IMG/VR virus record: IMGVR_UViG_3300017788_000088
Span: 1 to 34,440 of that record
DNA length: 34,440 nt
Origin: a virus
Reading direction: 5' to 3' (one strand)
Position numbers and translations under genes: made by a program. This document shows positions 3,577 through 19,529 of the stretch, piece by piece. The notes below the pieces were generated by a model, which was not told the DNA's origin, made no database searches, and was given only the letters and a program-made list of their open reading frames with translations. Each line of letters starts with the position of its first letter. Within the stretch, counting starts at the first letter, position 1.

Positions 3577-6500
3577 TTACTACATCCTCCATTATTACTG
3601 TTCCATCTTTTGTTTTACCAAATTCAAATTTATAAACATTACCCGCTTCTACATGCATATATGCTTTAGGAAATGCTGTTGGAAATACTGTTACTGCATG
3701 TAATTCTCTGCTTGCATCGGCCAGAGTAAGAGATGCCATCTTCTTGCCAGTCTTTGTTGCCCTAGGCTTAAATGAAACAACAAACATTTCATCATCTTTA
3801 TATGGCAACATCTTGTAATTTAAAAACTTAACAAGTGCGTCTTTAGATTCTTTTATTTCATCCACAGGGACTGCAGATACAACCCTATTATCGTTTGCAA
3901 GAATAATATAAGAACGACCAGCCTCAATAGTGGTATTTTCTTCATCAAATATACCTACGCTTCCTGTCTTATCTAACAACTCTACCCTTGACCATCCTTT
4001 TGATCTCTTAATTGATTTTACCATACCCATCAAAATGAATGCGCCCTTTTCTTCATATTCTTCAATATCATTTATGTACGCATAATAGTGTTGTGGTATA
4101 GATATATTAAATTCAGGAAGATTGAGATACTCATATAAGTTCTCTTTAACCTTTACTGCATCCCCTGGATTATCTGGGAAAGTTAGTGCACCAACAGCAT
4201 TCATTGCCTGAAGTGCACGGCTATTAACTCCGTTACCTTTTGTAAAAGTAAACTCTTCTACTTCTTTAAACGTTTTAAAAGGTCTTGCTTCAATATATCT
4301 CTCTGCAATTTTGTCAGATATAAACTTGATAGCACTGAGTCCAAACCTAATGCCCTTACCCTCAATTTTAAAATCTTTATCCGAATCATTAATATGAGGT
4401 AGTTTAATTGGAATGCCCATTCTTTTTGCTTCAATTAAGTACTCCGTTCTTGCATCTTTATCCTTCTCATTTTTGAGAAGAGCAAACATAAATTCTATTG
4501 GATAATAATATTTTAACCACGCCGTCCAATACGAGAGCGTAGAATAAGCAACCGCATGACTCTTGTTGAACGAATATCCTGCATGTGCTTCAAAGTCATG
4601 CCATAAATCAAGAGCATCATTAGGAGCAACATAACGAGAAGCACCTTTAATAAACTGATCTTGGAAAACATCAAACTCTCTTGCGTCCTTCTTTTTACCA
4701 ATGATTTTACGAACCTTGTCTGCCTCTGCCATTGTCATACCACCAAGTTCAACGCAAGCCTGCATAACCTGTTCCTGGTATAGGATACACCCATATGTTT
4801 CTTCAGTAAATGGCTTTAATATCTGATGAATATAATCAATATTTTGTCTACCATGTTTACGAGCAATATAATCTTTACCAATAGTATTCATAGCACCAGG
4901 TCGGACGAGAGCGTTTGAAGCAGCTAATTCAGAAAGATTTTTTACACCCATCTTTATTAGTAGGTTAGTATATGGGGCTGCTTCGCACTGAAATACACCT
5001 TTTGTATACCCATCAGATAACATCTGATATACATTTTTATCATCCATATCAATATTAAGGATATCTATTTTCTTTCCGTGTCTATCTTCAATAATATCAA
5101 GAGTATCTTTAACAACACTTAAAGTCTTTAAACCAAGTGCATCAATCTTAATTAGACCAATGCGTTCTGCTTCTTCCATATCTACCGCCACAACTGGGAT
5201 ACGCTCATCTGCACCAGTTACATTACGAGTTTCCATAGGAGCATACTTAAAGATTGGCTCCTTGCTAGTTACTACACCTGCAGCGTGAATACCAGTTCCA
5301 CGGATGCGACCACGAAGTTGTTCACCATACGCTACGACTTCTGGATATTTATCACGAAACCAAGAAGAGTTTTTAGATGTACAGAAATCATCCCATGTAT
5401 CTACAGTCTTTAATACTTTATTTACATCTGGCAACGGTATGTTCAAAGCACGAGAAACATCTCGTACAACACCCTTATCTTTAAATTCTAGAAATGTAGC
5501 AATAGATGCAACATGCCGATATTGTCTAACTAGATAATCTTTTACTTCATCACGGCGTGAATCTTGAATATCTGAATCAATATCAGGGAAGTCGTTACGC
5601 TCAGGATTAATAAAACGAAAGAACAAAAGTCCGTGCTCAATTGGATCAATATCTGTAATACCAATTGAATAACAAAGAAGCGAACCAGCAGAAGATCCAC
5701 GACCTGGACCAACCATAATTCCTTCCTTCTTTGCCCAGTTAAGCATATTACGAACAACCAAAAAGTATGGGGCAAAATTCTTTTGATTAATAATTTCTAG
5801 TTCTTCATCAAGACGATCTAAGTATTCTTTGTTTGTATCAAGACCACGCTCTTTTAATCCTTCAAGTGCAAGTTTGCGTAACTCTTCTCCTGGCTTACGA
5901 TACTGCACTGGCAGTAGATTTAATCCAGATTGTATATCATATTCTTCAACCTTGTTACAAATCTCAAGTGTAGATGTAAACATTTCTTCATTATCAATAC
6001 CATGCTTTAGCATTGCATCTTTCATTTCTTGATAAGACAAAAGATGAATATCAAATGATTGGAATGACATTTGACGATCTGCACCATAAAGATAGTTAAG
6101 TCTTTCCATCATATCTTTATGCTTCTTAGACTTGTCGTATGTAGCATTTTTCTGTAATTTTGCGTGGGTATTCAGGATAAGCATTAGTTCCTGAATCTCT
6201 TTTTGGCTGGTATCAGAATGATGACAATCAGGAGTAACTACTAGCTTTACCCCCATAGATTTTGCTAATTCTACTAACCCTTTATTTACCTTTTCAGGGT
6301 TATGGGGCATTACCTCAATATAATAATCATCTCCAAAAGTTTCTTTAAACCATTTAATATGTTTCTTTGCAACTGCTAGTTCATCTAGTTCTACCGCTTT
6401 TGCTACCCAGCCACTTAGGCAGGCAGAGGTTACAATAATTCCTTCTTTATATTTTGCTAGTGTTTCAAAATCAAACCTTGGCTTACTAAAAAATCCTTCA

Positions 6501-6844
6501 GTCCAAGCAATCTCATTAATCTTGTTTAGATTTTCTAAACCTTGTTGGTTCTTGGCAAGAAGGACTATATGATGATAATTTTGATCAAGAGGATCTGTGC
6601 GGTCTACTTTTGCTCTCTTGTCAGCCATATCTGTTGTCATATAGCCCTCCACGCCTAATATGGGCTTTATGCCTGCTTCTTTTGCAACACGGTACATCTC
6701 ACGATGACCTGATAGAGTTCCATGATCTGTAATTGCAATTGCTTGCATACCAAGCTCTACGGCTCTATTTACATATTCCTGCGGAGTAGCCACACCATCC
6801 ATTAACGAGTAATGTGTGTGGACATGAAGCCCAACGTAATTCAT
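3569..6844 (-). CDS. dnaE: DNA polymerase III alpha subunit (DnaE-type, C-family)
   Basis: 1091 residues, near the length of bacterial DnaE. An N-terminal PHP domain (1 to about 215) keeps its likely metal ligands: His7 and His9 (LHVHTHYS), Asp40-His41 (ITDHGTLSG), Glu66 (GVEGY), His91/92 and CHHSD at 207-211. The polymerase core has GPGRGSSAGS at 379-388, the catalytic pair Asp421/Asp423 in PDIDSDI, and the third Asp568 in LIKIDALGLKTL. The C-terminal 200 residues contain an OB-fold stretch (ILMGMVKSIKRS) and a second beta-rich segment. It is the replicative polymerase; an intact PHP may supply proofreading. ATG 6844 lies right after the preceding gene's TAG TAG, with a weak ribosome site, so coupling is likely. 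Confidence 0.95.
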   Translation of the reverse strand: MNYVGLHVHTHYSLMDGVATPQEYVNRAVELGMQAIAITDHGTLSGHREMYRVAKEAGIKPILGVEGYMTTDMADKRAKVDRTDPLDQNYHHIVLLAKNQQGLENLNKINEIAWTEGFFSKPRFDFETLAKYKEGIIVTSACLSGWVAKAVELDELAVAKKHIKWFKETFGDDYYIEVMPHNPEKVNKGLVELAKSMGVKLVVTPDCHHSDTSQKEIQELMLILNTHAKLQKNATYDKSKKHKDMMERLNYLYGADRQMSFQSFDIHLLSYQEMKDAMLKHGIDNEEMFTSTLEICNKVEEYDIQSGLNLLPVQYRKPGEELRKLALEGLKERGLDTNKEYLDRLDEELEIINQKNFAPYFLVVRNMLNWAKKEGIMVGPGRGSSAGSLLCYSIGITDIDPIEHGLLFFRFINPERNDFPDIDSDIQDSRRDEVKDYLVRQYRHVASIATFLEFKDKGVVRDVSRALNIPLPDVNKVLKTVDTWDDFCTSKNSSWFRDKYPEVVAYGEQLRGRIRGTGIHAAGVVTSKEPIFKYAPMETRNVTGADERIPVVAVDMEEAERIGLIKIDALGLKTLSVVKDTLDIIEDRHGKKIDILNIDMDDKNVYQMLSDGYTKGVFQCEAAPYTNLLIKMGVKNLSELAASNALVRPGAMNTIGKDYIARKHGRQNIDYIHQILKPFTEETYGCILYQEQVMQACVELGGMTMAEADKVRKIIGKKKDAREFDVFQDQFIKGASRYVAPNDALDLWHDFEAHAGYSFNKSHAVAYSTLSYWTAWLKYYYPIEFMFALLKNEKDKDARTEYLIEAKRMGIPIKLPHINDSDKDFKIEGKGIRFGLSAIKFISDKIAERYIEARPFKTFKEVEEFTFTKGNGVNSRALQAMNAVGALTFPDNPGDAVKVKENLYEYLNLPEFNISIPQHYYAYINDIEEYEEKGAFILMGMVKSIKRSKGWSRVELLDKTGSVGIFDEENTTIEAGRSYIILANDNRVVSAVPVDEIKESKDALVKFLNYKMLPYKDDEMFVVSFKPRATKTGKKMASLTLADASRELHAVTVFPTAFPKAYMHVEAGNVYKFEFGKTKDGTVIMEDVVNV

Positions 6845-6847
6845 CTA

Positions 6848-7501
6848 CTACCAATCAATGTTTGTAGCAGTTGTTGATGGAGTATCAAATCCAAAGTAAA
6901 ATGCTTCTTGCTCTGGATATGGAACTTCACGGACTACCTTTTCAAGATTAAAATATTCATTACCTTCCCATTTAAATGGTTCAGTATCAGGTGTTGATGG
7001 AATAAGTGTGTAATTTGTTTCAGTACCCTGGCCATTACGCTTTAGTTTCCATACTAAGTTTGAGATACTACCTGTTTCAAGTGCATACTCACGAATTGTA
7101 TTAAATGCAGACTGCTTACTAATACCCTGCGACCATACTGCAATATATGGATCTTCTGTTCCATCATCTACAAGTACATTTGTGTAGAAACGAAGACGTG
7201 CTCTCCAGCCACTCTTTGGCTCTTTACGTGCCATTTCGCAACCAAAGCAACGACCCTCAGATTCCATAGTACATGCAGCCTTACGCTTATAGTCTTTTGG
7301 ATTTGTATGTTCTGAGCATACTACTGCCAATCCACGATCCTCATTATAGTTTGCCGAATCTTGGTCTAACTCGTTAACGAATCTAATCTTTGCTGCTTGT
7401 CCGTCAGCTAACTTAACCCAACGAACCTTTGTTCCTGTGCTTTCATATTTTGGCTTTTCAACTAATGCGTTGATGTTCTTAAGCCCTTTAACTATTGCCA
7501 T
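6848..7501 (-). CDS. Single-stranded DNA-binding protein with gp32-like zinc site
   Basis: 217 residues. A basic, beta-rich N-terminal half is followed by a metal site (Cys62, His65, Cys77, Cys85, Cys88). The His-x11-Cys-x7-Cys-x2-Cys part is close to the zinc site of T4 gp32 (His-x12-Cys-x9-Cys-x2-Cys). The C-terminus ends in a flexible acidic-aromatic tail (GFDTPSTTATNIDW), as tails of SSB-type proteins that recruit partners often do. It would coat single-stranded DNA at the fork. ATG 7501 has AAGGAG at good spacing and the near-consensus promoter at 7528-7557 lies just upstream, so this gene and dnaE may be the most strongly transcribed replication genes. The family is inferred from motif and context. 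Confidence 0.78.
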   Translation of the reverse strand: MAIVKGLKNINALVEKPKYESTGTKVRWVKLADGQAAKIRFVNELDQDSANYNEDRGLAVVCSEHTNPKDYKRKAACTMESEGRCFGCEMARKEPKSGWRARLRFYTNVLVDDGTEDPYIAVWSQGISKQSAFNTIREYALETGSISNLVWKLKRNGQGTETNYTLIPSTPDTEPFKWEGNEYFNLEKVVREVPYPEQEAFYFGFDTPSTTATNIDW

Positions 7502-7525
7502 TGTTTTCTCCTTATATAAGTTTTT

Positions 7526-8458
7526 CTATTTTAGCATAGAAATGATGGAGTTGTCAAATGAGTATTCCAGTTGTCTAATAGCATCATCATTCATATCGCC
7601 TATATCTTTATATTGTTTATCTAATTTAACTATAGTAACTAGTGACCCTAATTTCTCAACTAGGCGGTCAGCCATAATTGAGCCTGCTTCATCATTATCT
7701 GCCACAAGCACAACATTTGTGAAGTACTTTTCTAATAGTTTCATCTGGCTTGATGAAACATTAGCCCCCAGCGTGGCAACTGCGGGTAATCCTACTTGGT
7801 CTAATCTAATAGCATCAAAAGAAGACTCTACGACATATACTGTACTAGAAGACTTTACTCTGTGCAAATTAAATAATATCTTACTCTTGGGTAATCCTGG
7901 TGTATTTTTAAATTCTTTTCCTTCTACCGTTCTTGCTACAAACCCTATACACATACCGTCGGGAGAATGCATTGGAACAATAACTGAATCCTGTTTTTCA
8001 GAATAGCCTAAATCAAATTTAAACATTGACTCTTTGTTTATTTTACGACCCTCAAAATATGATGTAGCTCTTGGGCTGTCAGTAGCTTGTTTTGCCAATC
8101 TCTTAATTAATAGTTCGTCATATTGCACAAAGTCGAGGGCAGCATAAAGAGCCTTATTAATTACATCTTCTAAATTAGTCTCAGTCTCCTTGCTTTTAAT
8201 ATATCTGATAGATTCAAAATAAGATCTACCAGTCATATGCATAATTAATTCAGTTAAATTCTTGGTTGTTTGACATCCAAAGCAAAAGAATAATCCAGAC
8301 TCTTTAGATACTTCACCAGCAGGGGTTCTGTTGTTATTGTGATATGGACAAAATATAATATAATCAGTACCGTATTCTGCTTCTATATCTATTCCAGCAC
8401 CAGTCAGTACTCGTTGTATTTGTTGTTGTGTGTATATATCGTTATTTTTTGTCTTCAT
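7526..8458 (-). CDS. dnaG: DNA primase (DnaG-type, CHC2 zinc finger and Toprim)
   Basis: 310 residues. The N-terminal CHC2 zinc finger uses Cys37, His40, Cys59 and Cys62 (FCPYH, FCFGC). The middle part carries the primase basic segment (DSVIVPMHSPDG). The Toprim domain has Glu211 (VVESSFDAIRL) and Asp254/Asp256 (LVADNDEAG). It is about half the length of bacterial DnaG because the C-terminal helicase-binding domain is missing; the helicase is a separate overlapping gene. It makes RNA primers for DnaE. The frame is open to a TTG at 8488, but ATG 8458 has AAGGA five bases upstream. The last codons overlap a promoter for the next gene: the TAG stop is inside its -10 region. Confidence 0.93.
   Translation of the reverse strand: MKTKNNDIYTQQQIQRVLTGAGIDIEAEYGTDYIIFCPYHNNNRTPAGEVSKESGLFFCFGCQTTKNLTELIMHMTGRSYFESIRYIKSKETETNLEDVINKALYAALDFVQYDELLIKRLAKQATDSPRATSYFEGRKINKESMFKFDLGYSEKQDSVIVPMHSPDGMCIGFVARTVEGKEFKNTPGLPKSKILFNLHRVKSSSTVYVVESSFDAIRLDQVGLPAVATLGANVSSSQMKLLEKYFTNVVLVADNDEAGSIMADRLVEKLGSLVTIVKLDKQYKDIGDMNDDAIRQLEYSFDNSIISMLK
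7528..7557 (-). promoter_or_regulatory. Near-consensus sigma70 promoter before the ssDNA-binding protein
   Basis: On the minus strand, TTGACA (7552-7557) is followed after 18 bp by TAAAAT (7528-7533), with a TGC extension directly before the -10. Transcription would start near 7521 and give a leader of about 20 bases with a good AAGGAG site before the ATG at 7501. The promoter lies inside the 3' end of the primase gene and covers its stop codon. Confidence 0.65.
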
Positions 8459-9665
8459 AATCCTTGTATCTGTAATATCCCTTATCAAAGTCTGCTTGTA
8501 CTAAAAAGTCTCCCATAAATCCATTACGGTTTTTTCTAAACGCACATTCAATTATATCACTATTCGTCGCCCTACCAAGAGCTAAAACCCAGTCAGCGTC
8601 GTATGCAATCTGACGTGACCAAGCCGTTTGACCTAGCGTTGGGACTGTGCTCATATTGGTAACATCATCTGGTGTCGCAGATGAAATTGCAATAATAGGA
8701 ACTTCTTCACTAATAGACATAAGCTTTAATTCACGAGACAGATTTTTCATGCGTACCGTTTCGTTGTCAGACTTTTGGTTTGGTGCCATAAGTTGTAGAT
8801 AATCTACAATTACAAAGTCTGGGCGGTACTGATCAATCTTTCCACGAATAACTGATGGATTAATTTCTCCACCACTATCATTTGAAATAATATGAAAGGG
8901 TGGCTTGCCAGCAATTTTACTGTCGTGCCACTTCTTAAGCATATCTATTTCAATGTCGCCATTAGAAATCTTGCGATGTGACCATAGACCTTCACCCATA
9001 ATCGCAAACACACGATTACGAACTTCTGTCTCAGACATTTCAAGACTTATAATCATTGGTGTCTTGCCCTGTTTCCATGCTTGTACAGCAAAGTAAAGAG
9101 CAAGCCAAGATTTGCCAATACCTGGATATGCTAAGAAAATCCCCAATTGTCCTGGCATGATTCCTGAAGGGAGGTAATTGTCAAACCCTGGCAAGCCTGT
9201 CTTAATTCCAATCTTACCTAGTTCTTGTTGCTTTTTTACATTTTCAAAATATGCAACTGCAGACTGAATATCGGTAGCATCAATATCACGGATAGCGGAT
9301 GTATTCTTCTTTAACTCAGAAGTCTTTGTAATTAATTGTTCTAATGCTTTTACACCCTGCCCACCCTGAACCTCTGTAGCAGCATTACGAATAATATCTT
9401 TTAGACTATCATTTAAATAGTCTGCTTGAAATTCTTCAAGATGATGCTTTGTAGATCCTATTCCTTGAGTTGGGACAAAGTCTCTAAACTTTTCTACTAC
9501 TAAAGATACAGGTGGTACCGTCCCGTTGTTTTCTGCATACCGCTTGATAAAATTCCAAACATCTCCATGCGTTCTAAGCATTGAGTCAATATTTGCCTGA
9601 AGCAATACATGTACCTGCTTGTCTTCTAGTACAGCCGATATTAACTTAGATTCTGAATTATTCAC
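8442..9665 (-). CDS. dnaB: DnaB-type replicative helicase
   Basis: 407 residues, shorter than bacterial DnaB (about 470) mainly at the N-terminus. The RecA-like helicase core has Walker A at 179-187 (AYPGIGKSW), the catalytic Glu region SLEMSETE (207-214), Walker B at 292-298 (FVIVDYLQLM), and a C-terminal basic FRKNRNG that matches the arginine-finger area. It would unwind the fork as a hexamer. The start is GTG at 9665, overlapping the end of the 102-residue gene by eight bases, with AGGAAG nearby; no better ATG exists. It overlaps the primase start, so helicase and primase are made together. Confidence 0.93.
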   Translation of the reverse strand: MNNSESKLISAVLEDKQVHVLLQANIDSMLRTHGDVWNFIKRYAENNGTVPPVSLVVEKFRDFVPTQGIGSTKHHLEEFQADYLNDSLKDIIRNAATEVQGGQGVKALEQLITKTSELKKNTSAIRDIDATDIQSAVAYFENVKKQQELGKIGIKTGLPGFDNYLPSGIMPGQLGIFLAYPGIGKSWLALYFAVQAWKQGKTPMIISLEMSETEVRNRVFAIMGEGLWSHRKISNGDIEIDMLKKWHDSKIAGKPPFHIISNDSGGEINPSVIRGKIDQYRPDFVIVDYLQLMAPNQKSDNETVRMKNLSRELKLMSISEEVPIIAISSATPDDVTNMSTVPTLGQTAWSRQIAYDADWVLALGRATNSDIIECAFRKNRNGFMGDFLVQADFDKGYYRYKDYEDKK

Positions 9666-9966
9666 TTAACCACTTCCTAGCCAATTCTCTACGCTCTTGT
9701 CTTTCAGCTATATCTCTTTCAGTAGCAGATCTACCGTTTAATATTTCTTGTGCATTATAAGCAAAAAAGTTCCAAGTAGGATTTTGTGCTACCTCAAAAT
9801 AATAATCTAATAAATCATAGCAGGCATTTAGCCCATAAGATTCTACAAGGGCATCTGCAGCCCACTGTTCAACATTAAGATTGAGATTAGACTTTTGCTC
9901 GTATCTCTGCAAATGAAGCTTATTGTAGCGACTGAGCAAAGCCATTCGGTCTTTGCGATCAGCCAT
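9658..9966 (-). CDS. Unknown 102-residue protein, possible helicase partner
   Basis: No family is recognised with certainty. The protein is helical and charged. It has an aromatic core (YDLLDYYFEVAQNPTWNFFA, then YNAQEILNGRS) and a basic/acidic C-terminal helix (ERQERRELARKWL). The pattern of a residue pair Pro-Thr-Trp followed by Phe-Phe and an Asn-Ala turn recalls small replication-initiation or loader proteins of phages, but this is an impression. ATG 9966 is used; the gene overlaps the helicase start by eight bases. Position directly before a helicase gene with a shortened N-terminus suggests a helicase loader or partner. Confidence 0.78.
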   Translation of the reverse strand: MADRKDRMALLSRYNKLHLQRYEQKSNLNLNVEQWAADALVESYGLNACYDLLDYYFEVAQNPTWNFFAYNAQEILNGRSATERDIAERQERRELARKWLSE

Positions 9967-9968
9967 GA

Positions 9969-10181
9969 CTACTCTTCTACAATCTCGGCTTTGGCTTCTT
10001 GAACCTTCTCAACTACCTTGCTTTCAACAAAAGCATATATACGATCCATTGCATCGTTTGTAGTCTCACCGTCACGAGTATAATCTACAACTCCTAGATC
10101 AACTCGCAAAGATTGAAAGTTTCCTAAATTAAGTGTGTATCCAAGTGTTACAGATACCTTTGTATCATTACGTTCTTCCAC
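9969..10181 (-). CDS. Short conserved-looking phage protein of unknown function
   Basis: 70 residues from the preferred start. A beta-rich first half (VSVTLGYTLNLGNFQSLRVDLGV) leads into an acidic amphipathic helix rich in Val, Glu and Lys (FVESKVVEKVQEAKAEIVEE). The NLGNFQS stretch resembles a motif I have seen in small phage proteins, but I cannot assign a function. An in-frame ATG exists at 10196, but a perfect AAGGAGG occupies 10187-10193, inside that longer reading frame, five bases before GTG 10181; I therefore choose GTG. The gene sits between the helix-turn-helix gene and the helicase block. Confidence 0.75.
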   Translation of the reverse strand: MEERNDTKVSVTLGYTLNLGNFQSLRVDLGVVDYTRDGETTNDAMDRIYAFVESKVVEKVQEAKAEIVEE

Positions 10182-10186
10182 TGCTG

Positions 10187-10193
10187 CCTCCTT
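10187..10193 (-). promoter_or_regulatory. Ribosome binding site deciding a GTG start
   Basis: AAGGAGG on the minus strand, followed by CAGCA and GTG at 10181. It overlaps the second to fourth codons of the longer ATG frame starting at 10196, so it argues against that ATG as the real start. Confidence 0.7.
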
Positions 10194-10199
10194 CATAGG

Positions 10200-10745
10200 C
10201 TAATTAATGCTCTCTCCCCAAACAGGTATAAATCTACCATCTTCAGTTCTTGTATAAACCAGTATACCATTACCAGTTTTTCGTGTCAACTCCTGTGCTG
10301 TAGGAGTCATATTATTTGTTATTAAGTTGTCTTTTCTTGGTCTTCCAATATGTATACTTGCTAGTATATCACGTATCTCTTTTACTTGCGACTCAGAGTA
10401 ATATGCTCTTATTTTCCATTCTCGTGTACCGCCGACTTGTGCACCTGTCGGTGGTGGAATAATTCCACGTTTAATTAGTGATGGAAAATATTTACGATGC
10501 CTATTGACAAGTCGTGCTGTATCTGCTACAGTGTATGCCCTTTGTCTATTTTTTCTAAAATCGGTACGCAAACAAGTTTCTAATCTATCTTTAGTTATAT
10601 TATAAACAGTAACCATTCCTGTAGAACGAGAACTATGATGATATCTAACAAGATCACCATTTAAAAACCAAATTTTTTTATTGGCTTTTATTACAGGCTC
10701 GTTATTGTATGCTTGACTCTCAATTTTTCCTTTTCCAGTAGCCAT
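10200..10745 (-). CDS. MerR-like helix-turn-helix DNA-binding protein
   Basis: 181 residues. The N-terminal part (WFLNGDLVRYHHSSRSTGMV) is beta-rich and basic. A MerR-type helix-turn-helix follows at about 70-97 (AYTVADTARLVNRH, then FPSLIKRGIIPPP), with a wing and a YYSESQVKEIRDIL helix at 115-128. The C-terminus (ILVYTRTEDGRFIPVWGE) is probably a small beta sheet. It would bind DNA; it could regulate the replication operon, recognise an origin, or both, and the sequence does not say which. ATG 10745 has GGAGGGAAG directly upstream. It overlaps the zinc-ribbon gene by 55 bases in another frame. Confidence 0.85.
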   Translation of the reverse strand: MATGKGKIESQAYNNEPVIKANKKIWFLNGDLVRYHHSSRSTGMVTVYNITKDRLETCLRTDFRKNRQRAYTVADTARLVNRHRKYFPSLIKRGIIPPPTGAQVGGTREWKIRAYYSESQVKEIRDILASIHIGRPRKDNLITNNMTPTAQELTRKTGNGILVYTRTEDGRFIPVWGESIN

Positions 10746-10879
10746 CTTCCCTCCAAAGATTGAGACGGTGGATGAAAAAACTTTCTAGCTCCACACATTA
10801 TGCAAAAGGTCTCTATGTGATCAATACTAGAATATTGACGGTCTATAAAAACTCTACCCTTGCATTTTCTACAAAACAT
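10691..10879 (-). CDS. Small zinc-ribbon protein
   Basis: 62 residues with CRKC at 3-6 and CIMC near 26-29, a C-x2-C-x19-C-x2-C zinc ribbon, followed by a basic C-terminus (LLEKEKLRVKH). ATG 10879 shares one base with the stop of the upstream coiled-coil gene (TAATG). The 55-base overlap with the next gene is longer than usual here, but the intact cysteine pattern and start coupling support a real gene. It probably binds nucleic acid or a protein partner; function is unknown. Confidence 0.7.
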   Translation of the reverse strand: MFCRKCKGRVFIDRQYSSIDHIETFCIMCGARKFFHPPSQSLEGRWLLEKEKLRVKHTITSL

Positions 10880-11073
10880 TATTGCTCTATATCTAATCCA
10901 ACTTTAGATGATATTTGTTCAGAGTACTCTTGTGCAGCCTTATCTTTTTCATTTTTTTCATTAATAAGACTTGTTATTTCTGCTCTTAAAATAGCAACCT
11001 GAGTCTCATAGTTAGAGACTAGTTCGCCTATGCGTTGTTGCAAGGCGGTAATTACTAACTCTGCCTTTTCCAT
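10879..11073 (-). CDS. Small coiled-coil protein
   Basis: 64 residues with heptad-like spacing of hydrophobic residues throughout (ELVITALQQRIGELV, then VAILRAEITSLINEKNEK). No cysteines or membrane segment. ATG 11073 follows a run of G (GGGGGGG) a few bases upstream and ends in a TAATG junction with the zinc-ribbon gene. Function unknown. It is one of three very small coiled-coil proteins encoded in a row. Confidence 0.7.
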   Translation of the reverse strand: MEKAELVITALQQRIGELVSNYETQVAILRAEITSLINEKNEKDKAAQEYSEQISSKVGLDIEQ

Positions 11074-11091
11074 TTTACCCCCCCTATATTA

Positions 11092-11304
11092 TTATGACAG
11101 AGATGCTAGCTCAGCATCTAATGCTGTAATCTTTTTATTAATCTCAGTAATCTTATCATTTAGTGCATCAATAGCATCTTGGTCTGGGCTGGTTACAGCA
11201 TTTTCCTCAATCAATGATACCTGCAAATTATATTTGCTGTACTCAACATTTCTCTTATGTTGATTTACAATTGATATTTTATCTTCATTCGTTAGTATAG
11301 TCAT
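11092..11304 (-). CDS. Small coiled-coil protein
   Basis: 70 residues. The N-terminal part (MTILTNEDKISIVNQHKRNV) and middle (YNLQVSLIEENAV) look like a short helical hairpin, and the C-terminus is a coiled coil (DALNDKITEINKKITALDAE). Small phage proteins of this look are common but without known function. The frame is open up to a TTG at 11334; ATG 11304 is chosen because GGAGG lies five bases before it. The strong promoter at 11320-11347 lies immediately upstream. Confidence 0.75.
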   Translation of the reverse strand: MTILTNEDKISIVNQHKRNVEYSKYNLQVSLIEENAVTSPDQDAIDALNDKITEINKKITALDAELASLS

Positions 11305-11319
11305 TTTTCCTCCTTTCAT

Positions 11320-11347
11320 ATTATAGCATATCAAGCAAATTAGTCAA
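11320..11347 (-). promoter_or_regulatory. Near-consensus promoter driving the replication-side genes
   Basis: On the minus strand TTGACT (11342-11347) is separated by 16 bp from TATAAT (11320-11325), with a TGC extension before the -10. The predicted start, about seven bases on, falls near 11313, on the ribosome site of the gene starting at 11304, so the leader would be very short or nearly absent. The promoter lies inside the 3' end of a 52-residue gene. It is well placed to start transcription of the genes from 11304 leftward. Confidence 0.65.
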
Positions 11348-11479
11348 TGCCTGAATTTTAGCCTGAAGATCTTCTAAAGACTCTCCAGAATCCTCTTCTG
11401 TCCCTATACAGTTTATTTGTCCATTTAAGTCTTTAAGTCTAGAATTAATTAAATACTCTTTATATTCTTTATCTATCAT
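11321..11479 (-). CDS. Tiny coiled-coil protein (52 residues)
   Basis: A short open frame from ATG 11479 to TAA, acidic, with a C-terminal heptad pattern (LEDLQAKIQALTNLLDML). Its start overlaps the stop of the giant tail gene by four bases (ATGA), the coupling typical of this genome, though no strong ribosome site is visible. Its last codons contain the -35 and -10 of the promoter at 11320-11347, which could constrain the sequence. Function unknown. Confidence 0.6.
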   Translation of the reverse strand: MIDKEYKEYLINSRLKDLNGQINCIGTEEDSGESLEDLQAKIQALTNLLDML

Positions 11480-14400
11480 GCTGAAACCCATTCAGAGTAG
11501 GTGCCATTATAAGTATTTCCATCTGTTCCTAGCATAACAACTCTTGCACGAGCCCATCTGGTAGATGAGCTAAATGAAATATCTCCATCACTGGTACCGC
11601 ATCTAAATGCCCAGTTTGTTCCTGCTGCAAAATATGGGTATGTAAAAGCTCCTGGATATGACCTAGTGCCACTTGCTAACAATGTTCCTCCGCCTGCTGT
11701 TGTTCTAATTTGAAATTGCATACCAGTTATAGAAGATACGCTTCCAGAAACTGAGGGGTAGTCGCAGTACCATCTTACGATTGAAGAAGTTCTTTGAGAT
11801 GCTAAACTGGGGGCAGGAGCTGATGGTGTTACAAAATTAGATTGCCATCTTGCCCAAAATGTTATATTACCTGTAGGAGTAAATGTACCCCCATTATTTA
11901 CTTGATGCAAAAAATCTCCAGATGCGCTGTCTCGCCAATATAAAAATGTAAATCCAGAACGTGTTCCTGGTGAAGGAGCCGTATGTGCAACTCCTGCGTT
12001 TTGGGTTGTGGATCCACCACCAGAGCCGCCATTTGCATTCCAAGTTATTGTATATTGTACTGTAGACGACGTACCGCTTGCAGTTATATCTACAGAATTA
12101 TATCCAGATAATGAGTATCTAACAGTTACTGTTGATGATGCACCATTTCCTAATCCAGATACTGACAATGCACCAGTAGACGAGTTTATTGTAGGTGTTC
12201 CAGCGCTCTGTGTTACTACCGAATATGTGCCACCTGTTGGATTTGGATTTGTAGAAATAGTTGCACTCCATCCACCAGTTGTTGGTGTAGCAGTTCCGTA
12301 CGCAGGATTTGTTGTTAAGTTGGATAAAGCTTGGCCAGTTGCTGTTATATTAACAGGATTATATCCAGATCTATTGTATTGTATGGTTACTGTTGAGGAC
12401 TGTCCTGCAGTTAGTCCACTTGCAGTTAATGCTCCAGTAGACGAGTTTACTGAAGCACTACCAGCAGTTTGAGATACAACAGAATATGTTCCTCCAGTTG
12501 GGTTTGGCGCTGTTGATATAGTTGCACTCCATCCGCCAGATGCTCTTGTGGCAGTTCCGTACGCAGGATTTGTTATTAAATTGGGCAAAATATATGTTAA
12601 AGAGGTACTATTGGATCTTGAAGAAGATTTTTCAGTTGGAGTAATTGCACTTAGTCCAGTGCTAAATGTATTGGACGTTCCAGTTCCATTAGCACCGCTC
12701 CACAATGTTACAGATTGAAAGGTAAAACTGCCCATACCTGAGCTCCAGCCGATATCGTGATTAACAGAAGATCCGCTATTATTTATAATAGCAGTTTGAT
12801 CTGAACCGAAAGCGCTACTTGAATAATTAACTTGATAACTTTGTGAATTAGATTGATTCCATGAAGCTCTAACCTGCAAGCTATTATTAAAATTAGTTAC
12901 AGTTGCTGTATATGTACCGCTAGAGGAATAATTTGATAAATCAGATGTTATGAACGGCGCAGAGGTATCTGTGTAACTTGTGTTAACTCCTGCTCCGCTT
13001 GCTGCAAAACTAACCGATGTTATTGGAGATCCGTTTGTCCAGCTAGTTGTTACTTGATTATTGCTTGAAGAAAAACTTAATGTGCTTGGCTGTGAGGGGG
13101 TGGCTGTAGAATCTGACCTGGCAAATCCAGATGCTGTTGGTGGGCTTGTTACTACTATGTTTGTAACCGTTTCAACATCGGATCTAAATCCTCCATTAAC
13201 GGAGTTAAAAATAAAGACTCTAAAATCATATGTGCCAGCAGCCACTATTTGTTGTCCAGATGTTGATGGATTTGTTATTGGGGTGTATGTGGAGCTAGAT
13301 GAAAGTTTGTATTCTAGATCCATAGTCACAACTGGATCATCTGCGGTGAATGAAAAATTCCATATAAGCAATCCCGCACCACCAGTAACAGTAAGAGAAG
13401 TTATAATTGGAGATGTATAAAATACAGTCAATAAATTGCTTGTTAGTGGACTTACTGCTGCACCTGTTTGATTTCTTCCAAATACCCTTAACCTTATTAG
13501 TTGTGTTTTTTGACTTACCGCATCATAATTTGGTATAGTTGTAACTTCTGTTCCAGAACTTCTTGTAGTCCAGTTGGAACCACCGTCCGAACTCGTTTGC
13601 CATTGATAATCATACGAGGTTGCACTATTTGACCATGTGCCATATTCTGTAATTTGAAATATATAATTTGATGCAGAGTCTGAAGCAATTGTAACTGATC
13701 CACTACCAACTGGGGCGGGTAGCTGAGGTGTTACTGAATTTGATGCAATAGATTCTACAGAATAACCATTTGCATTTCTTGCTGCAACAGTAAATGTATA
13801 TGCAGTATAGTTTATAAGTCCTGTAACTGGTATTGGAGATACAGTATCAGATCCTGCTATACCCCCTGGAGCAGATGTTGCTCTATAATCAATTAAAGAT
13901 TTGCCTCCAGTTAAGGTGGGCGGTGTAAATGAAACATCTGCAGATGCATTTCCAGCAACTGCAGAAACACCTGTTGGAGCAAAGGGTACTGTGGTAATAA
14001 GAACAGCATTGCTATCTTCAGACCTATTCGATGTTTCTAAAGACCCAATTGCACTTACATTAAATTTATAACTTGTATTTGATAATAATCCAGTAAAAGT
14101 TCCAGAGGTTGTATTACTTCCAGTATCAGAAACTAAGGTTTGATATGTTAAGAAGTTAGGTCCTTGTTGATATTCAATTTTATATCCAACTATCGTTGCT
14201 CCATTATCCGCTTGTGTCCAAGATAAATTTACAGCGCCATTATTATATGCCCTATTAGTTCCAACATCTGTAGCAGTTACATTGGTTGGTATAGCTGGTG
14301 TTGCTTGTGCAGTTGTAAAAGATTGTTGATCTGTTTCTATTGTTCTTAATGCAACCGTTGAGTTTGATGCCCAACCATCTTGCATAGTTGCTTTTATAAC

Positions 14401-15264
14401 TATAGTATATTGTGTATTAGGGCTTAAGTTTGCACTTGTAAAAGTAACAGTTGTATTGGGTGAACTTGTTCCTGTTCCAGGAAATATCGTTGTACTATAA
14501 AGAGGACTTGCAGATGTATTATTATATGGATATACTAAAAACTGTTGCTCGGATATATCTTGTGCCTGTATAGTAGAATTACCGCTATAAGACCAATAAA
14601 ATGTTCCACCATTTGTTTGTGGATCACCAACATAAGAACCTATTGTTGCCTGATTAAAAACAACATTAGCATACATTCTTGGTAAAACGACTTCTGTCGA
14701 GTATTCACCTGTACGATCAAGATTATTGGTTGCTTCTATATACCCCCTAAAATAATAGCCATCTCTAACATCGGCCTTTGTTATTGTATATCTGTTTGTA
14801 GAACTTAATGGAACTTCATCTGCATAGTTAGAATCTGAATATGATGAGTATGTTCTGGTTACTGACGATGATGAATTAACATTTGTAACACCAGAGCTAA
14901 AGCCAGCGCTTTGAGACTTCTGTATCCTCATAAAAAACGATATTGGTTCTTCATTCCAGTTTCCTCTTATTAAAAATATTTTATCTCCATCATATGCTGC
15001 TGGAGATGTTAAAGTAGAACTTGTAGCAGAAAAAATTTCTGAAGATGCTGTTTCATAACCCCCACCATCTCTAAAATACAACAATGGTCTGGTTGCTGTT
15101 TTTACACTTGGAGTTAACAAAGATGCAAATATTCTTTTAAATGTTCCAGAATCATTTAATCTATATGCGTTAGATATTTTTTTTAAAACGCCGCTATTAT
15201 TAAGGCGATATACGCCAGTTATTTTTTTAAAAACCCCACTAGTATTTAATCTATATATTGGCAC
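11476..15264 (-). CDS. Giant tail tip/fibre protein with FN3, tandem Ig-like and InlB-type repeats
   Basis: 1262 residues. The start has three 15-residue repeats (YRLNxSGVxKKI, residues 4-48). Two fibronectin-III-like domains lie at about 325-425 and 426-514, then Ser/Thr-rich beta domains. A tandem 87-residue repeat (895-981 and 982-1064, each starting NLxTNPAYGTAT) has a GG-T-YSVV core. An InlB/Listeria-Bacteroides-type repeat spans about 1071-1140 (TITWNANGG, GFTFLYWRDSASG, FWARW). There are no catalytic motifs. It is probably an adhesin-like fibre on the virion tip that binds the host surface. The start is GTG 15264, with AGGAGG eight bases upstream inside the previous gene's end. It is the last virion gene before the replication side. 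Confidence 0.85.
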   Translation of the reverse strand: MPIYRLNTSGVFKKITGVYRLNNSGVLKKISNAYRLNDSGTFKRIFASLLTPSVKTATRPLLYFRDGGGYETASSEIFSATSSTLTSPAAYDGDKIFLIRGNWNEEPISFFMRIQKSQSAGFSSGVTNVNSSSSVTRTYSSYSDSNYADEVPLSSTNRYTITKADVRDGYYFRGYIEATNNLDRTGEYSTEVVLPRMYANVVFNQATIGSYVGDPQTNGGTFYWSYSGNSTIQAQDISEQQFLVYPYNNTSASPLYSTTIFPGTGTSSPNTTVTFTSANLSPNTQYTIVIKATMQDGWASNSTVALRTIETDQQSFTTAQATPAIPTNVTATDVGTNRAYNNGAVNLSWTQADNGATIVGYKIEYQQGPNFLTYQTLVSDTGSNTTSGTFTGLLSNTSYKFNVSAIGSLETSNRSEDSNAVLITTVPFAPTGVSAVAGNASADVSFTPPTLTGGKSLIDYRATSAPGGIAGSDTVSPIPVTGLINYTAYTFTVAARNANGYSVESIASNSVTPQLPAPVGSGSVTIASDSASNYIFQITEYGTWSNSATSYDYQWQTSSDGGSNWTTRSSGTEVTTIPNYDAVSQKTQLIRLRVFGRNQTGAAVSPLTSNLLTVFYTSPIITSLTVTGGAGLLIWNFSFTADDPVVTMDLEYKLSSSSTYTPITNPSTSGQQIVAAGTYDFRVFIFNSVNGGFRSDVETVTNIVVTSPPTASGFARSDSTATPSQPSTLSFSSSNNQVTTSWTNGSPITSVSFAASGAGVNTSYTDTSAPFITSDLSNYSSSGTYTATVTNFNNSLQVRASWNQSNSQSYQVNYSSSAFGSDQTAIINNSGSSVNHDIGWSSGMGSFTFQSVTLWSGANGTGTSNTFSTGLSAITPTEKSSSRSNSTSLTYILPNLITNPAYGTATRASGGWSATISTAPNPTGGTYSVVSQTAGSASVNSSTGALTASGLTAGQSSTVTIQYNRSGYNPVNITATGQALSNLTTNPAYGTATPTTGGWSATISTNPNPTGGTYSVVTQSAGTPTINSSTGALSVSGLGNGASSTVTVRYSLSGYNSVDITASGTSSTVQYTITWNANGGSGGGSTTQNAGVAHTAPSPGTRSGFTFLYWRDSASGDFLHQVNNGGTFTPTGNITFWARWQSNFVTPSAPAPSLASQRTSSIVRWYCDYPSVSGSVSSITGMQFQIRTTAGGGTLLASGTRSYPGAFTYPYFAAGTNWAFRCGTSDGDISFSSSTRWARARVVMLGTDGNTYNGTYSEWVSA
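12070..12582 (-). repeat. Tandem 261-bp repeat inside the last tail gene
   Basis: Two direct copies with a period of 87 codons (12582-12322 and 12321 to about 12070) encode Ig-like units starting NLITNPAYG and NLTTNPAYG. Long identical runs remain between the copies, for example around GCAGTTCCGTACGCAGGATT on the plus strand, so the duplication is fairly recent or kept uniform by recombination. Confidence 0.8.
15121..15255 (-). repeat. Triple 45-bp repeat encoding YRLN-SG motifs
   Basis: Three consecutive 15-codon units at the N-terminus of the 1262-residue tail protein: YRLNTSGVFKKI, YRLNNSGVLKKI and YRLNDSGTFKRI. Being at the extreme N-terminus, where fibres usually attach to the tail, they may form the docking element. 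Confidence 0.8.
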
Positions 15265-15267
15265 TCT

Positions 15268-18200
15268 CTAAGCCTCCTGAATAAAGACTATATCTCCAGA
15301 TTTTATTTTTTTAGTTCCATTTCCAGTTGCATAGTCTCCTTCAACGCCATCAAAACTTGTAACAGTTCCAGGACCACTGTTACCAGTATACAAGCTTTGA
15401 TATATAAATCTACGACCCTTTACAAGCTTCTTTGATACATCATCAATTGTTATTGTTGGATCTCCCGCCCATCCATTAAAATCTGCAGATGGCATATTAT
15501 TAAATGTTATGTCTTTGCTACCATCTCCTAAATCAAAAGCTACAGACGTGGTAGTACCAGAAATTATATCTGCAAGCTTAAAGGCTCCAGTATCATACCA
15601 ATAATTATTAGCAGATATATAGAGGCCATCATTTGTTCCATCTACATTATCTCCAAACTTCATGTCTCCACCAGAAACAGCAAGAGTACCAGTTAAATTA
15701 GCTCCCTGTGCATTTAAAATACCACTTCTAGTTATGTAAAAATTAGGAGTTAATCCATCTAATCCAGCCTCAAATATATTTGTAGTGCCACTACCAGATC
15801 CAGTTAAATCTGTTCCAAACCTTACACGATAATTAGTAGAAACATCAATAACACCCGTAATAGATATTCTCTTATCATCTGAATCAAGAATAAACTGTTC
15901 TGATCTATCTCTTATAGATGTGCTATTCACTACCCATCCACCTATTAATGCTGCTTTTGTAAAAAATGTAATTGCTGTAGGTAATGAACCAACTGCTGGA
16001 TTATCTCCAATAGGAATATTTCCAGAGCTTATTGGAGTATTAACAATTGCTGTTAATGTATTATTACTTGATCCAATAGAAGCTAAACCCTTATCATTAA
16101 TAATAACACTTGTATCAGTTGGGCTTGTACCAGTATAAAATGATCCAGATACTACCTGGAAATTTCCTGTTATGCTTCCAGAGGTAGCAGTTATAGCACC
16201 ATTAACCTGTGCTTCAGTAGCATACATGGTTCCGTCAGTTAAAACATGGAACCCAGATGTTAGGTTAGACGATGTTGCACCTATATCTAATGTTCCTCCA
16301 GAAATCTCAACAGATTTTGCCCAAACTTTTCCAGTTCTATCTACTGCAAATTGTGTAGTATCTCCGCCAGAAGATGTGCTGCCAGAATAAAACTTATAAA
16401 GTCCAGTTGATGATAGCCCTGCATATTTTGTTGAAACAGGATCAAGTTTTTCTATTTTGCTAGAAGATATTGCCCAGTCTGCAATATTTCCAGCATTGGC
16501 TGTAATGGCTCCATTAGTTGTGTCTAAAGATACCTGGTTACTGCCTTTTCTAATTAACAGCCCATCGACATTAAATATAAAACCATCACCAGTTAAATTA
16601 TCTGGGCTTGTTGTAACATCTCCACTGTATATAGACGCTCCAGATGTAGTGAGAGCTATGTTTCCTGCAAATGATCCACCCTTTGCGGTTATATCTCCAT
16701 CTACAGTTAGTTTAGTTCCATTCCACTCTAAATAATTAGCAGATGATCCGCCAACCTTAAACTGTGCAGAGTTTGCAGATGTTAAATACCAATAATTACT
16801 ATTACTTAAATATATACCTTGTGCAGATGCATTTTGTGCACCTGTTTTATCTTTAATTCCTGATCCAAATTGAAATCCTGCAGCTCCAGACTCTATATAA
16901 TTTGATAAAGCTGGAGTACCCGTTATTGTTACGTCTGCAAAAGACGTATATGCAGAAGAAGTATTGTTGTATTCATCATACGTTGCAACTCCTATTTTAT
17001 ATGTTGCGCCTACAGCCAACCCAATAAGCTTATATGATATTGTTCCTGTAGGAGGATTAGCCTGATCTATTGGAAAATCAACATGTGAATAAACTGGACT
17101 AGATGTGTCTGTAGTAAATCTAATTCTATATCCACGCAGAGTTGTGTCGGATACTGCGGTCCAATTTAAATTAATATAACCATTGAATCCTAAAGTCCCT
17201 GATGTATCTATGCCGTTTGTTGATGCAGCAACAGTGGCAACATTTGCAGGACCAGTTACGTCAACTGTTACTGGAGAAAGCGGTACAACAATTTGTTCTG
17301 CAGAATAGTTTGACGAATTTCCAAAATCATCAGAATATCTAACAAGAAGATATGTGTTTTGATATAAAGTAGAAGATATGTTGGCTGGACTTCCTCCAGA
17401 ATATACTATTCCATATCCTGTTACTGATCCAGATACTTGTGAAGTAAAGTTATTATTTACTGTTATTTGACCTCCAGATACAGCAGTTATATAAGTATTT
17501 TCTGGAATGCCAGTACCAATAACTATGTATCCAACAAGTGGCGATACTGAAGCACCTGTATTAGAAACAATACTTGATAATGTAACTGTATTTGTTCCAG
17601 ATGCTCCGCCAGATGAGTATGTTCCAGTGAATGAATCGTATGGCGTTACTCCTGACCAACTTGTATATTTTTGATATATCTTTGCATAAACAGCACCTGC
17701 TGGTAATGTATATGAAACGTTATATCCATTTACTAATGCAGTTGTTGTAAATGTTGGGGTAACTCCAAGAAGAGGATTTGCTCTTGCTGCAACACTAAAT
17801 GATACTCCGTTTGATCTATTGTCTGCTGCGTCTATACTTTTAAAAACTCCAGTATATGAAGAATAGTGTGATCCAAATTGTGCAAACAAATCTGCCTTAG
17901 TTATAATATATGTTTGATTTAAGGATGTTCCAGATGGGAATGCATAAAAATATCCTACAGAATAGTTTGGTGCAGTAAGAGCAACTTGGAATCTAGCACC
18001 TGCATCTGATGCTGGTAATGTATAGCTAATAACAATATTGTCTCCAGACCATGCTGCTGATACTGAAGCAACTTCTGCTGGTGGAATTAAATCTACAGAA
18101 ACTGGATTAGTTGGAGTTACTTTTACTGCATTTGAGTATGGCCCATATGTCCCAGCTTTATCAGTAAATCTTGCCTTTACCCAACGAGCCTCTGTAGTTG

Positions 18201-18972
18201 GAGTTAGAACTACTGCAGGCTTTATAGTATTTAAATATACTTGCTGATATCCAGTAGACGGAGCTGTTCCTGCATCTGATACTATTTCTTCTACAGATAT
18301 GTACTGATATGTTTGTGCTACTGTATTCCAATCAACAGAATATCCCATTGGAATACTTGTTACAGTAATTACTGGAGCAGGAAGACTATTAGAATACGAT
18401 GGTATAGATGTAATCGTTGTAACTGGTCCATTATTACCAAAACTATCATATGCTGCTATTTTTAATTCTGTAAATGATGTTTGAAAAATACCGTAGTATT
18501 GTGTATTAAGTGCATATGTAAATTCTACTCTTTGAGAAGTGCTATCTTTGTTTAAGGTAATGCTTTCTATAAGTGGTGTTGTTTCACTGTTACCTGTTAA
18601 CGTATATCCAAAACTAGATACATATTTATTGTCGGGATCATTAAAATCAAAATCAAAAGATATTACAAGTGCTGGTCCGCCTGAAAGTTCTTCCCATGCT
18701 AAAGAAACGTTACTTAGTCCAGATGGGGTTGTAAAATTTTCACCTTTTGGATTTAAAACTCCATCTTTCTGATTTTTAGAAGAAAATCTAATGTTTGATA
18801 GTCTTCCTGCTTGACTTAATGTATTTATTCTAGAATCTATAATAACAAGTTCTGCACCAAGTCTTGCAGCTGTAATGTTTGCCTTAAAGCCCTGAACTCG
18901 TGGGTCAGCAGCATCTATATAGACAGTCTTTCTTTTACCAACGGTAAACGGTGATCTATATTGAGACTGCAC
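15268..18972 (-). CDS. Large minor tail protein with FN3-like domains, probable tail tip
   Basis: 1234 residues. An N-terminal helix-containing segment (ADPRVQGFKANITAARL) may pack on the hub. Fibronectin-III-like domains lie at about 190-290, 291-395 and 570-690 (KARFTDKAGTYGPYSNAV, GYRIRFTTDTSSP). From about 695 to 1140 the chain is a beta-rich, Gly/Ser/Thr fibre with repeated elements: GIYLSNSNYWY (719-729) recurs as GLYISANNYWY (1116-1126), and ITAKGGSFAG, ITANAGNIADW and ITATSGSITG mark repeating turns as in central tail-fibre shafts. A small C-terminal domain ends GDIVFIQEA. It probably forms part of the host-contact tip. The start is GTG 18972 with AGGG upstream; no nearby ATG competes. 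Confidence 0.83.
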   Translation of the reverse strand: MQSQYRSPFTVGKRKTVYIDAADPRVQGFKANITAARLGAELVIIDSRINTLSQAGRLSNIRFSSKNQKDGVLNPKGENFTTPSGLSNVSLAWEELSGGPALVISFDFDFNDPDNKYVSSFGYTLTGNSETTPLIESITLNKDSTSQRVEFTYALNTQYYGIFQTSFTELKIAAYDSFGNNGPVTTITSIPSYSNSLPAPVITVTSIPMGYSVDWNTVAQTYQYISVEEIVSDAGTAPSTGYQQVYLNTIKPAVVLTPTTEARWVKARFTDKAGTYGPYSNAVKVTPTNPVSVDLIPPAEVASVSAAWSGDNIVISYTLPASDAGARFQVALTAPNYSVGYFYAFPSGTSLNQTYIITKADLFAQFGSHYSSYTGVFKSIDAADNRSNGVSFSVAARANPLLGVTPTFTTTALVNGYNVSYTLPAGAVYAKIYQKYTSWSGVTPYDSFTGTYSSGGASGTNTVTLSSIVSNTGASVSPLVGYIVIGTGIPENTYITAVSGGQITVNNNFTSQVSGSVTGYGIVYSGGSPANISSTLYQNTYLLVRYSDDFGNSSNYSAEQIVVPLSPVTVDVTGPANVATVAASTNGIDTSGTLGFNGYINLNWTAVSDTTLRGYRIRFTTDTSSPVYSHVDFPIDQANPPTGTISYKLIGLAVGATYKIGVATYDEYNNTSSAYTSFADVTITGTPALSNYIESGAAGFQFGSGIKDKTGAQNASAQGIYLSNSNYWYLTSANSAQFKVGGSSANYLEWNGTKLTVDGDITAKGGSFAGNIALTTSGASIYSGDVTTSPDNLTGDGFIFNVDGLLIRKGSNQVSLDTTNGAITANAGNIADWAISSSKIEKLDPVSTKYAGLSSTGLYKFYSGSTSSGGDTTQFAVDRTGKVWAKSVEISGGTLDIGATSSNLTSGFHVLTDGTMYATEAQVNGAITATSGSITGNFQVVSGSFYTGTSPTDTSVIINDKGLASIGSSNNTLTAIVNTPISSGNIPIGDNPAVGSLPTAITFFTKAALIGGWVVNSTSIRDRSEQFILDSDDKRISITGVIDVSTNYRVRFGTDLTGSGSGTTNIFEAGLDGLTPNFYITRSGILNAQGANLTGTLAVSGGDMKFGDNVDGTNDGLYISANNYWYDTGAFKLADIISGTTTSVAFDLGDGSKDITFNNMPSADFNGWAGDPTITIDDVSKKLVKGRRFIYQSLYTGNSGPGTVTSFDGVEGDYATGNGTKKIKSGDIVFIQEA

Positions 18973-18981
18973 AGGACTACC

Positions 18982-19473
18982 CTATCTTCTGCCAACTGCA
19001 ATAAAGTTAAGCTCTACATCTGTAGTAATTAAATCTTTATTGTTTGTTTTAATTCCAGCCCTATATATTCTGGCAGTAAATCCTGTAGTACTGGCATTAT
19101 GAATAGATGCAACTATATCAAGATTTCCAGATATTGAATTATCAATATTATTGTTTGTTATGATAACATTTGGAATTTCAGAAAATGAAATACCTGTATC
19201 AAATGTAACATCTTTAGAATAATACGTTCTGCCGCTAGTTGGCACTGTGGCATCATCATCTGGTGTAATAGTTGCCTTGCCATAAATAATATTACTTGTT
19301 GCTATGTCAAAGTTAGCCTGAACATCTGGCTGTGTCCAATCTGGTATATAGTTTGCCCCAAATCTATTTACTAGGGCATTTAAATAATCGCTATGTTGAT
19401 TAACGACGTTAATAATTTGTTGAATTCCCGACAAGTCCATGATTGCTGGGTCTGATATTTTTACGTAAGCCAT
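18982..19473 (-). CDS. Minor tail protein with lectin-like C-terminal beta domain
   Basis: 163 residues. A short helical start (IMDLSGIQQIINVVNQHSDYL) may assemble with neighbours, then a beta-rich part from about 65. The pattern of GISFSEIPNVIITN followed by TGFTARIYRAGI and LNFIAVG resembles H-type-lectin-like beta sandwiches found at the ends of phage tail proteins. It may bind sugars on the host, or simply be a structural knob. ATG 19473 follows AAGGAGA. It lies between the hub and the two giant fibres, which supports a tail-tip role. Confidence 0.72.
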   Translation of the reverse strand: MAYVKISDPAIMDLSGIQQIINVVNQHSDYLNALVNRFGANYIPDWTQPDVQANFDIATSNIIYGKATITPDDDATVPTSGRTYYSKDVTFDTGISFSEIPNVIITNNNIDNSISGNLDIVASIHNASTTGFTARIYRAGIKTNNKDLITTDVELNFIAVGRR

Positions 19474-19492
19474 TTATTCTCCTTTGTATGTA

Positions 19493-19501
19493 ATTATATC
19501 A
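19493..19501 (-). promoter_or_regulatory. Candidate extended -10 promoter before the lectin-like tail gene
   Basis: Minus strand TGATATAAT in the 39-base gap after the hub gene, directly following a stable hairpin. No good -35 hexamer. Transcription would start about 13 bases before the ATG at 19473. Confidence 0.4.
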
Positions 19502-19503
19502 TT

Positions 19504-19529
19504 ACGGGGTGCCTAATATGATACCCCGT
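19504..19529 (-). other. Stem-loop spanning the hub gene stop codon
   Basis: Perfect 7-bp inverted repeat (ACGGGGT at 19504-19510, ACCCCGT at 19523-19529) with a 12-base loop that contains the TAG stop of the hub gene. On the minus strand it is followed by AATGATATAAT, not by a U-run, so it is a poor intrinsic terminator. It may pause polymerase, protect the 3' end of the hub message, or shield the next start. Confidence 0.5.

Follow-up and report, generated by a model that had tools for sequence, protein, structure and literature searches.

A conserved extended −10 element at a phage tail/replication boundary, predicted to start its message on a Shine-Dalgarno sequence

Extended −10 promoters of the sigma-70/sigma-A type carry a TG one base before TATAAT (TGN TATAAT), a weak or absent −35 element and a purine 6-7 bases downstream. 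Leaderless mRNAs make up 33% of the mRNAs in C. glutamicum, where a −35 element was found for 704 of 2,522 promoters (PMC3890552); leaderless mRNAs whose −10 adjoins the ORF are described for Deinococcus-Thermus (PMC12340547), and mycobacteria likewise have leaderless mRNAs whose −10 lies close to the gene (PMC4633059).

The window, that is the whole stretch of DNA analysed, is a virus record of 34,440 bases with a G+C content of 0.32-0.41 per kilobase. According to its longest-ORF list, the minus strand holds nearly all ORFs. Probable structural genes occupy about 34 to 11.5 kb on this strand and are followed by a replication module with matches to DnaB helicase, primase, single-strand binding protein, DNA polymerase, UvsX-like recombinase and Cas4-like exonuclease. 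By polymerase the closest named phages were Streptomyces phages, with identity of at most 55%, and megablast of 11.5 kb of the window against named phages gave no match. A host or prophage copy was sought in genome contigs, where none of 17 pattern matches was confirmed and no relative was found. WhiB, which has been described as an indicator of actinophages (PMC10202952), was found in five of 12 related records. Sigma-70 region 4 was not found in the 13 records searched; as these may be fragments, the gene for a phage sigma factor might lie elsewhere. Taken together, the two results fit a host sigma factor in an actinobacterium, and freshwater actinobacteria are the presumed hosts of the phage group.

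The boundary between the two modules carries TTGACT-16-TGC-TATAAT upstream of a gene for a 70-aa protein (Table 1), as a sequence-only reading had claimed. TATAAT itself lies at 11325-11320 of the minus strand, and the last letters of the 16-nt spacer AATTTGCTTGATATGC are TGC; in the resulting TGCTATAAT, TGN adjoins a TATAAT-like hexamer, as in extended −10 promoters. Five bases (ATGAA, 11319-11315), not the seven counted before, separate the −10 from AGGAGG, which is followed by AAAA and the ATG (11304-11302) of the 70-aa ORF. With this ATG 15 nt after the −10 and AGGAGG between them, the layout in the window is not that of a leaderless gene. The 70-aa protein had no match in Pfam or PHROGs.

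Table 1. Features at and downstream of the boundary (positions in the window).
Feature	Position	Strand	Remark
Probable tail gene, end of structural module	11476..15264	−	fn3 and List_Bact_rpt domains; tail assignment presumptive
52-codon ORF, end overlapping the promoter	11321..11479	−	Start ATG overlaps the tail-gene stop (ATGA)
−35-like hexamer TTGACT, optional element	11342..11347	−	16-nt spacer to the −10
Extended −10 TGCTATAAT	11320..11328	−	Conserved upstream of the same gene family and at the equivalent junction
Shine-Dalgarno AGGAGG, predicted 5' end of message	11309..11314	−	Position of GGAG core kept in relatives
Predicted transcription start, A 11314 or G 11313	11313..11314	−	Base preferences in relatives and leaderless-type siblings
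70-aa protein gene, first after the promoter	11092..11304	−	36 loci in IMG/VR
Second downstream gene, 64 aa	10879..11073	−	phrog_10610 (no function assigned), E 0.00011
181-aa protein gene with two embedded promoter-like sites	10200..10745	−	Streptomyces phage homologues annotated as helix-turn-helix DNA-binding proteins
Second embedded extended −10 TGATATACT in the 181-aa gene	10363..10371	−	CGT 46/46, ATA 45/46
Embedded promoter-like site TTGACA-17-TGGTATACT in the 181-aa HTH-like gene	10261..10289	−	64 nt before the next start codon

A general −35/−10 consensus scan of positions 5000-20000 returned 64 sites against 58.2 ± 8.6 in shuffles; since there is no excess of sigma-70-like sites, a sigma-70 match by itself means little, and the scan was set aside as uninformative on its own. 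The extended motif TGNTATAAT occurred five times on the coding strand of the window and not on the other, against a mean of 1.9 in shuffles, with five or more reached in 21 of 500. One window site combined it with a −35 matching at 5/6 or better, and 34 of 500 shuffles held at least one such combination. Four of the five TGNTATAAT sites stand 15-28 nt before a start codon and one lies inside the helicase gene. The latter, TGATATAAT at 8559-8551 (−), was rejected as a promoter and is probably a chance occurrence, since only 15 of 57 retain its ATA codon. Judged from the window by itself, the boundary match is therefore borderline, near chance level. This and the lack of excess would suit a chance origin, favoured by the A+T-richness of the genome and by the TAA stop codon contained in TATAAT, and the helicase-gene string looks like a case of that kind.

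The evidence that carries the promoter comes from relatives. A search with a three-sequence alignment of the 70-aa protein listed 36 loci, giving 37 places including the window; seven of the 37 upstream regions, identical to an earlier row, were set aside, leaving 30 distinct ones. TGNTATA[A/C]T was present within 75 nt upstream of the 70-aa gene in 28 of these 30, and the two exceptions had TGGTACAAT and TATAAT without TG, respectively. In the 28 rows, the ATG followed the −10 at 15 nt (15 rows), 16 (5), 17 (3), 18 (1), 20 (1) or 28 nt (3), hence at 15-17 nt in 23, and the seventh base after the −10 was G in 25. One relative, L154, has an additional AGGAG immediately 3' of the −10. A non-redundant set of 22 (window included) was obtained by requiring less than 70% similarity between rows in the 30 nt preceding the −10; the letters of the −10 are conditional here because all rows were chosen for having it. 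Bases 1-5 after the −10 were variable in this set, the sixth was A in 22/22 and the seventh G in 19/22, and the GGAG core started at base 7 in 18, at base 8 in three and at base 20 in one. The −10 is conserved and so is its spacing to the Shine-Dalgarno sequence, with diverged flanks. The site is taken as real because its place and spacing are conserved in relatives, and the retained distance supports the earlier claim that the start point falls on the Shine-Dalgarno sequence.

A −35 matching at 5/6 or better was found in five of the 22 non-redundant relatives, compared with 4% of random 30-mers, and in a wider set in 11 of 80 promoters, compared with 3 of 80 at a shifted position. The −35 thus appears to be above background but not required, and the extended −10 to be the conserved part; by conservation the −35 looks dispensable, 17 of the 22 keeping the −10 without a good −35. 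What had been called a near-consensus promoter is conserved in its extended −10 but not in its near-consensus −35, which could still matter in the window.

The overlap of the promoter with the 3' codons of the upstream ORF, also pointed out from the sequence, is present in the window, where the stop codon TAA of the 52-codon ORF (11323-11321) lies inside the −10 and the −10 extends one base beyond the ORF, but it is not general in relatives. In L130 and L131, the TAA of a small upstream ORF is likewise inside the −10; the stop sits elsewhere in other relatives, and the overlap is therefore regarded as incidental. A tblastn search with the 52-codon ORF (query without the first Met) found no match in the best 80 of at least 599 helicase loci, and its best similarity was to a small ORF in the same slot of L132 (phmmer E 0.0024, set of 13). 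This slot between the tail gene and the 70-aa gene (11321-11479) holds fast-changing small ORFs, also in several of L130-L156; they are perhaps distant copies of the 70-aa gene.

The same element also served to gauge where transcription starts. Across 32 records, TGNTATAAT was counted 168 times on the helicase strand and 21 times on the other, and the reversed pattern 53 and 69 times. Among 96 non-redundant sense occurrences (15 records), 43 stood before an ATG with a Shine-Dalgarno sequence, three were classed as other and 21 as none, and 29 had an ATG 5-10 nt downstream without a Shine-Dalgarno sequence, where about four were expected from the base rate. The commonest distance in these 29 was 6 nt (14 cases); on the opposite strand four of 16 occurrences had such an ATG, each at 6 nt. 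Controls gave 11/269 for TATAAT without TG and 2/38, 2/51, 1/48, 2/64 and 1/31 for altered motifs. If the AUG is the 5' end at these leaderless-type siblings, the start would be the seventh base after the −10, here 11313, which agrees with the start near 11313 proposed from the sequence.

Counted on both strands with TGNTATA[A/C]T, there were 39 ORFs of this leaderless type. Ten of them were compared with PHROGs: five matched from within their first six residues, including a head maturation protease matched from residue 1, four matched only further in and one had no match. Of ten scanned in Pfam, four matched (ferritin-like and glutathione-peroxidase domains among them) and six did not. The genes at L088:4526-5818, L096:13166-14491, L104:1761-3065 and L118:16500-17831 have their ATG 9 nt after TGNTATAAT without a Shine-Dalgarno sequence; the L088 gene matches head maturation protease, the other three are similar by eye, and all four are candidate near-leaderless structural genes. 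The phrog_10504 gene has the leaderless-type form in L110 and, judged by similarity, also in L115, and in the window its ATG stands 15 nt after TGCTAAAAT.

Strong Shine-Dalgarno starts gave a complementary count. Of 148 non-redundant starts (15 records), 32 have TGNTATAAT within 45 nt of the Shine-Dalgarno sequence, compared with 0, 0 and 0 for three anagrams and six for TATAAT lacking the T of TG. Between −10 and Shine-Dalgarno sequence lay 4-9 nt in 15 of the 32, 11-17 nt in 16 and 26 nt in one, and never fewer than 4 nt; junctions with 8-9 nt between −10 and ATG (GGAG at gap 0) fall outside the strong-site definition of this count. These results bear on the possibility that the conserved string works at another level than transcription, for example by providing an A+T-rich region free of structure ahead of the ribosome site, or as a tandem stop (TAATGA). 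Many relatives do have a stop codon directly before TGATATAAT, as this would predict; however, anagrams of the same composition are absent before strong Shine-Dalgarno starts, L041 has a −10 without a directly preceding stop, and the element also precedes ATGs that lack a Shine-Dalgarno sequence. We consider such a function very improbable.

The place of the promoter was also compared at the equivalent junction of relatives found through the helicase. The counts in this paragraph refer to the best 80 of at least 599 helicase loci and describe near relatives only. In the 73 places with at least 1800 nt available upstream of the helicase (window included), TGNTATA[A/C]T occurred at least once 2400-1150 nt before the helicase in 64, and nine were without the motif; a few of the occurrences lie within a gene or precede a different one (L047, L060, L062). 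The 70-aa protein was found in four of these best 80 loci, and a different first gene of about 147 aa in 68. After removal of two partial and 22 repeated upstream regions, 44 distinct ones remained from the best 80 of at least 599 loci; the extended −10 was present in 35 and absent in nine. In the 35, the ATG followed the −10 at 8-9 nt in 26 and at 15-18 nt in nine. The 8-9-nt junctions mostly have GGAG directly after the −10, which would place it outside the promoter's own message, and those of L015, L046, L070 and L074 are without any Shine-Dalgarno sequence, so that the leaderless layout is met with in relatives by sequence, e.g., in L015 and L046. Where the gene of about 147 aa has the Shine-Dalgarno form (e.g., L041, L033), the sequence again begins five bases after the −10. 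Place and spacing are thus shared by junctions whose first genes differ and whose stop codons have another placement or lie elsewhere, and an origin of the boundary string by chance is scarcely credible.

In the reading we favour, with a probability of about 0.75, the site would be an extended −10 promoter of the host housekeeping polymerase at the tail/replication boundary, with a message that starts on the Shine-Dalgarno sequence. The host housekeeping sigma factor would read the extended −10 at the border of the tail gene and the replication module, and transcription would begin 6-7 bases downstream of it. The message would open with the Shine-Dalgarno sequence, (A)GGAGGAAAAAUG, and its leader of 9-10 nt would be roughly the ribosome-binding site alone, from which the 70-aa gene would be translated. 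The promoter would drive the 70-aa gene and the genes behind it. The same Shine-Dalgarno sequence would also be internal to read-through messages from the tail gene, one site thus probably serving two transcripts. An almost leaderless message had been envisaged for the first gene: the predicted leader is indeed very short but not absent, since 9-10 nt with the Shine-Dalgarno sequence are kept, and it is at the equivalent junction of relatives that the leaderless type is common. A leader this short may be translated poorly.

A different emphasis, in which a real promoter serves chiefly the genes lying further left (181-aa regulator, helicase, primase and polymerase), had been offered as well; the 70-aa gene would then be translated almost only by coupling on tail-gene read-through, and the short leader would be a tolerated by-product. 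Consistent with this are the location at a module boundary, the fact that in 4/4 Streptomyces phages the last large gene ahead of the small genes has TTGACA-18/19-TATAAT at its end, and a promoter position that apparently persists while the first gene changes. However, the distance from −10 to Shine-Dalgarno sequence is kept in divergent relatives and would be free to drift if only distant genes mattered, and a strictly conserved promoter-like site stands nearer the helicase (10289-10261). We judge this reading unlikely, and serving the left genes and serving the 70-aa gene are not mutually exclusive.

For the helicase and primase genes, the embedded site at 10289-10261 is the better candidate promoter. 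The synonymous codons of its TTGACA-17-GGTATACT are frozen (TTG 46, ACA 45, GGT 46 and ATA 46 of 46 non-redundant sequences), and the spacer codons are free. At the second embedded site, the middle codon changes the amino acid (GAT 24, GCT 22), yet TGNTATACT is kept. A further stretch of synonymous constraint follows TGNTATACT at 10371-10332 (−), codons 131-138, and is possibly an operator. Elsewhere in the window, TTGACA-18-TGCTAAAAT (7557-7528, −) lies across the 3' end of the primase gene, ahead of the gene for single-strand binding protein, and the primase-end codons TTT GAC are kept in 43/43 aligned relatives (46 sequences). Hairpin-like sequences, judged by eye, are followed directly by TGCTAAAAT or TGATATAAT at 30902-30864 and 19531-19493 (−); module borders may consist of a terminator plus a promoter.

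A broader and more tentative proposal, which we hold as possible rather than probable, concerns the favoured promoter and its relatives together. The extended −10 and the translation start may form one compact module that interchanges in evolution between two states at the equivalent junction, −10 + 6-9 nt + AUG or −10 + 5 nt + AGGAGG + AUG. The second state would be a selected design, its Shine-Dalgarno sequence working internally on read-through and terminally on its own short message and allowing different translation during infection. Such junctions would form a natural set of cases for studying the minimum leader that a ribosome requires, and would supply a rule by which starts and promoters of these phages could be annotated.

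Neither extended −10 promoters nor leaderless genes are new in themselves. On a conserved layout with the Shine-Dalgarno sequence as the predicted 5' end, no paper was found among the matches listed in the literature searches. The Streptomyces phages examined were Circinus, Comrade and Wakanda (Stanwilliamsviridae) and the similar Francob, whose record carries no family. They share with the window a related polymerase, helicase and HTH protein, and their last large gene ahead of the small genes also carries a consensus promoter at its end, that gene being annotated as a minor tail protein in three and as hypothetical in Circinus. Unlike that of the window, their promoter has a full −35/−10 whose spacer measures 18-19 nt, and the annotated start follows after 29-35 nt. 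In the HTH genes of the Streptomyces phages, TTGACA-17-TGGTATACT was not listed as an embedded site, the closest being TTGAGA-17-TATGGT in Francob, and in the two phages compared the first small protein showed no detectable relation to the 70-aa protein. Because all four carry a boundary promoter, a promoter at this boundary is wider than the clade of the window, with a differing form.

Extended −10 promoters share with this locus the TG and TATAAT, a −35 that by conservation looks dispensable and the downstream purine, to which a near-fixed distance from −10 to Shine-Dalgarno sequence is added here. The leaderless mRNAs of Deinococcus-Thermus, mycobacteria and C. glutamicum have a −10 close to the gene, and relatives of this phage show this layout without a Shine-Dalgarno sequence. 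Compared with those mRNAs, the window differs in that its predicted leader of 9-10 nt keeps a full Shine-Dalgarno sequence at the 5' end, and the set described here differs in being a group of phages in which short-leader and leaderless-type forms occur at the equivalent junction.
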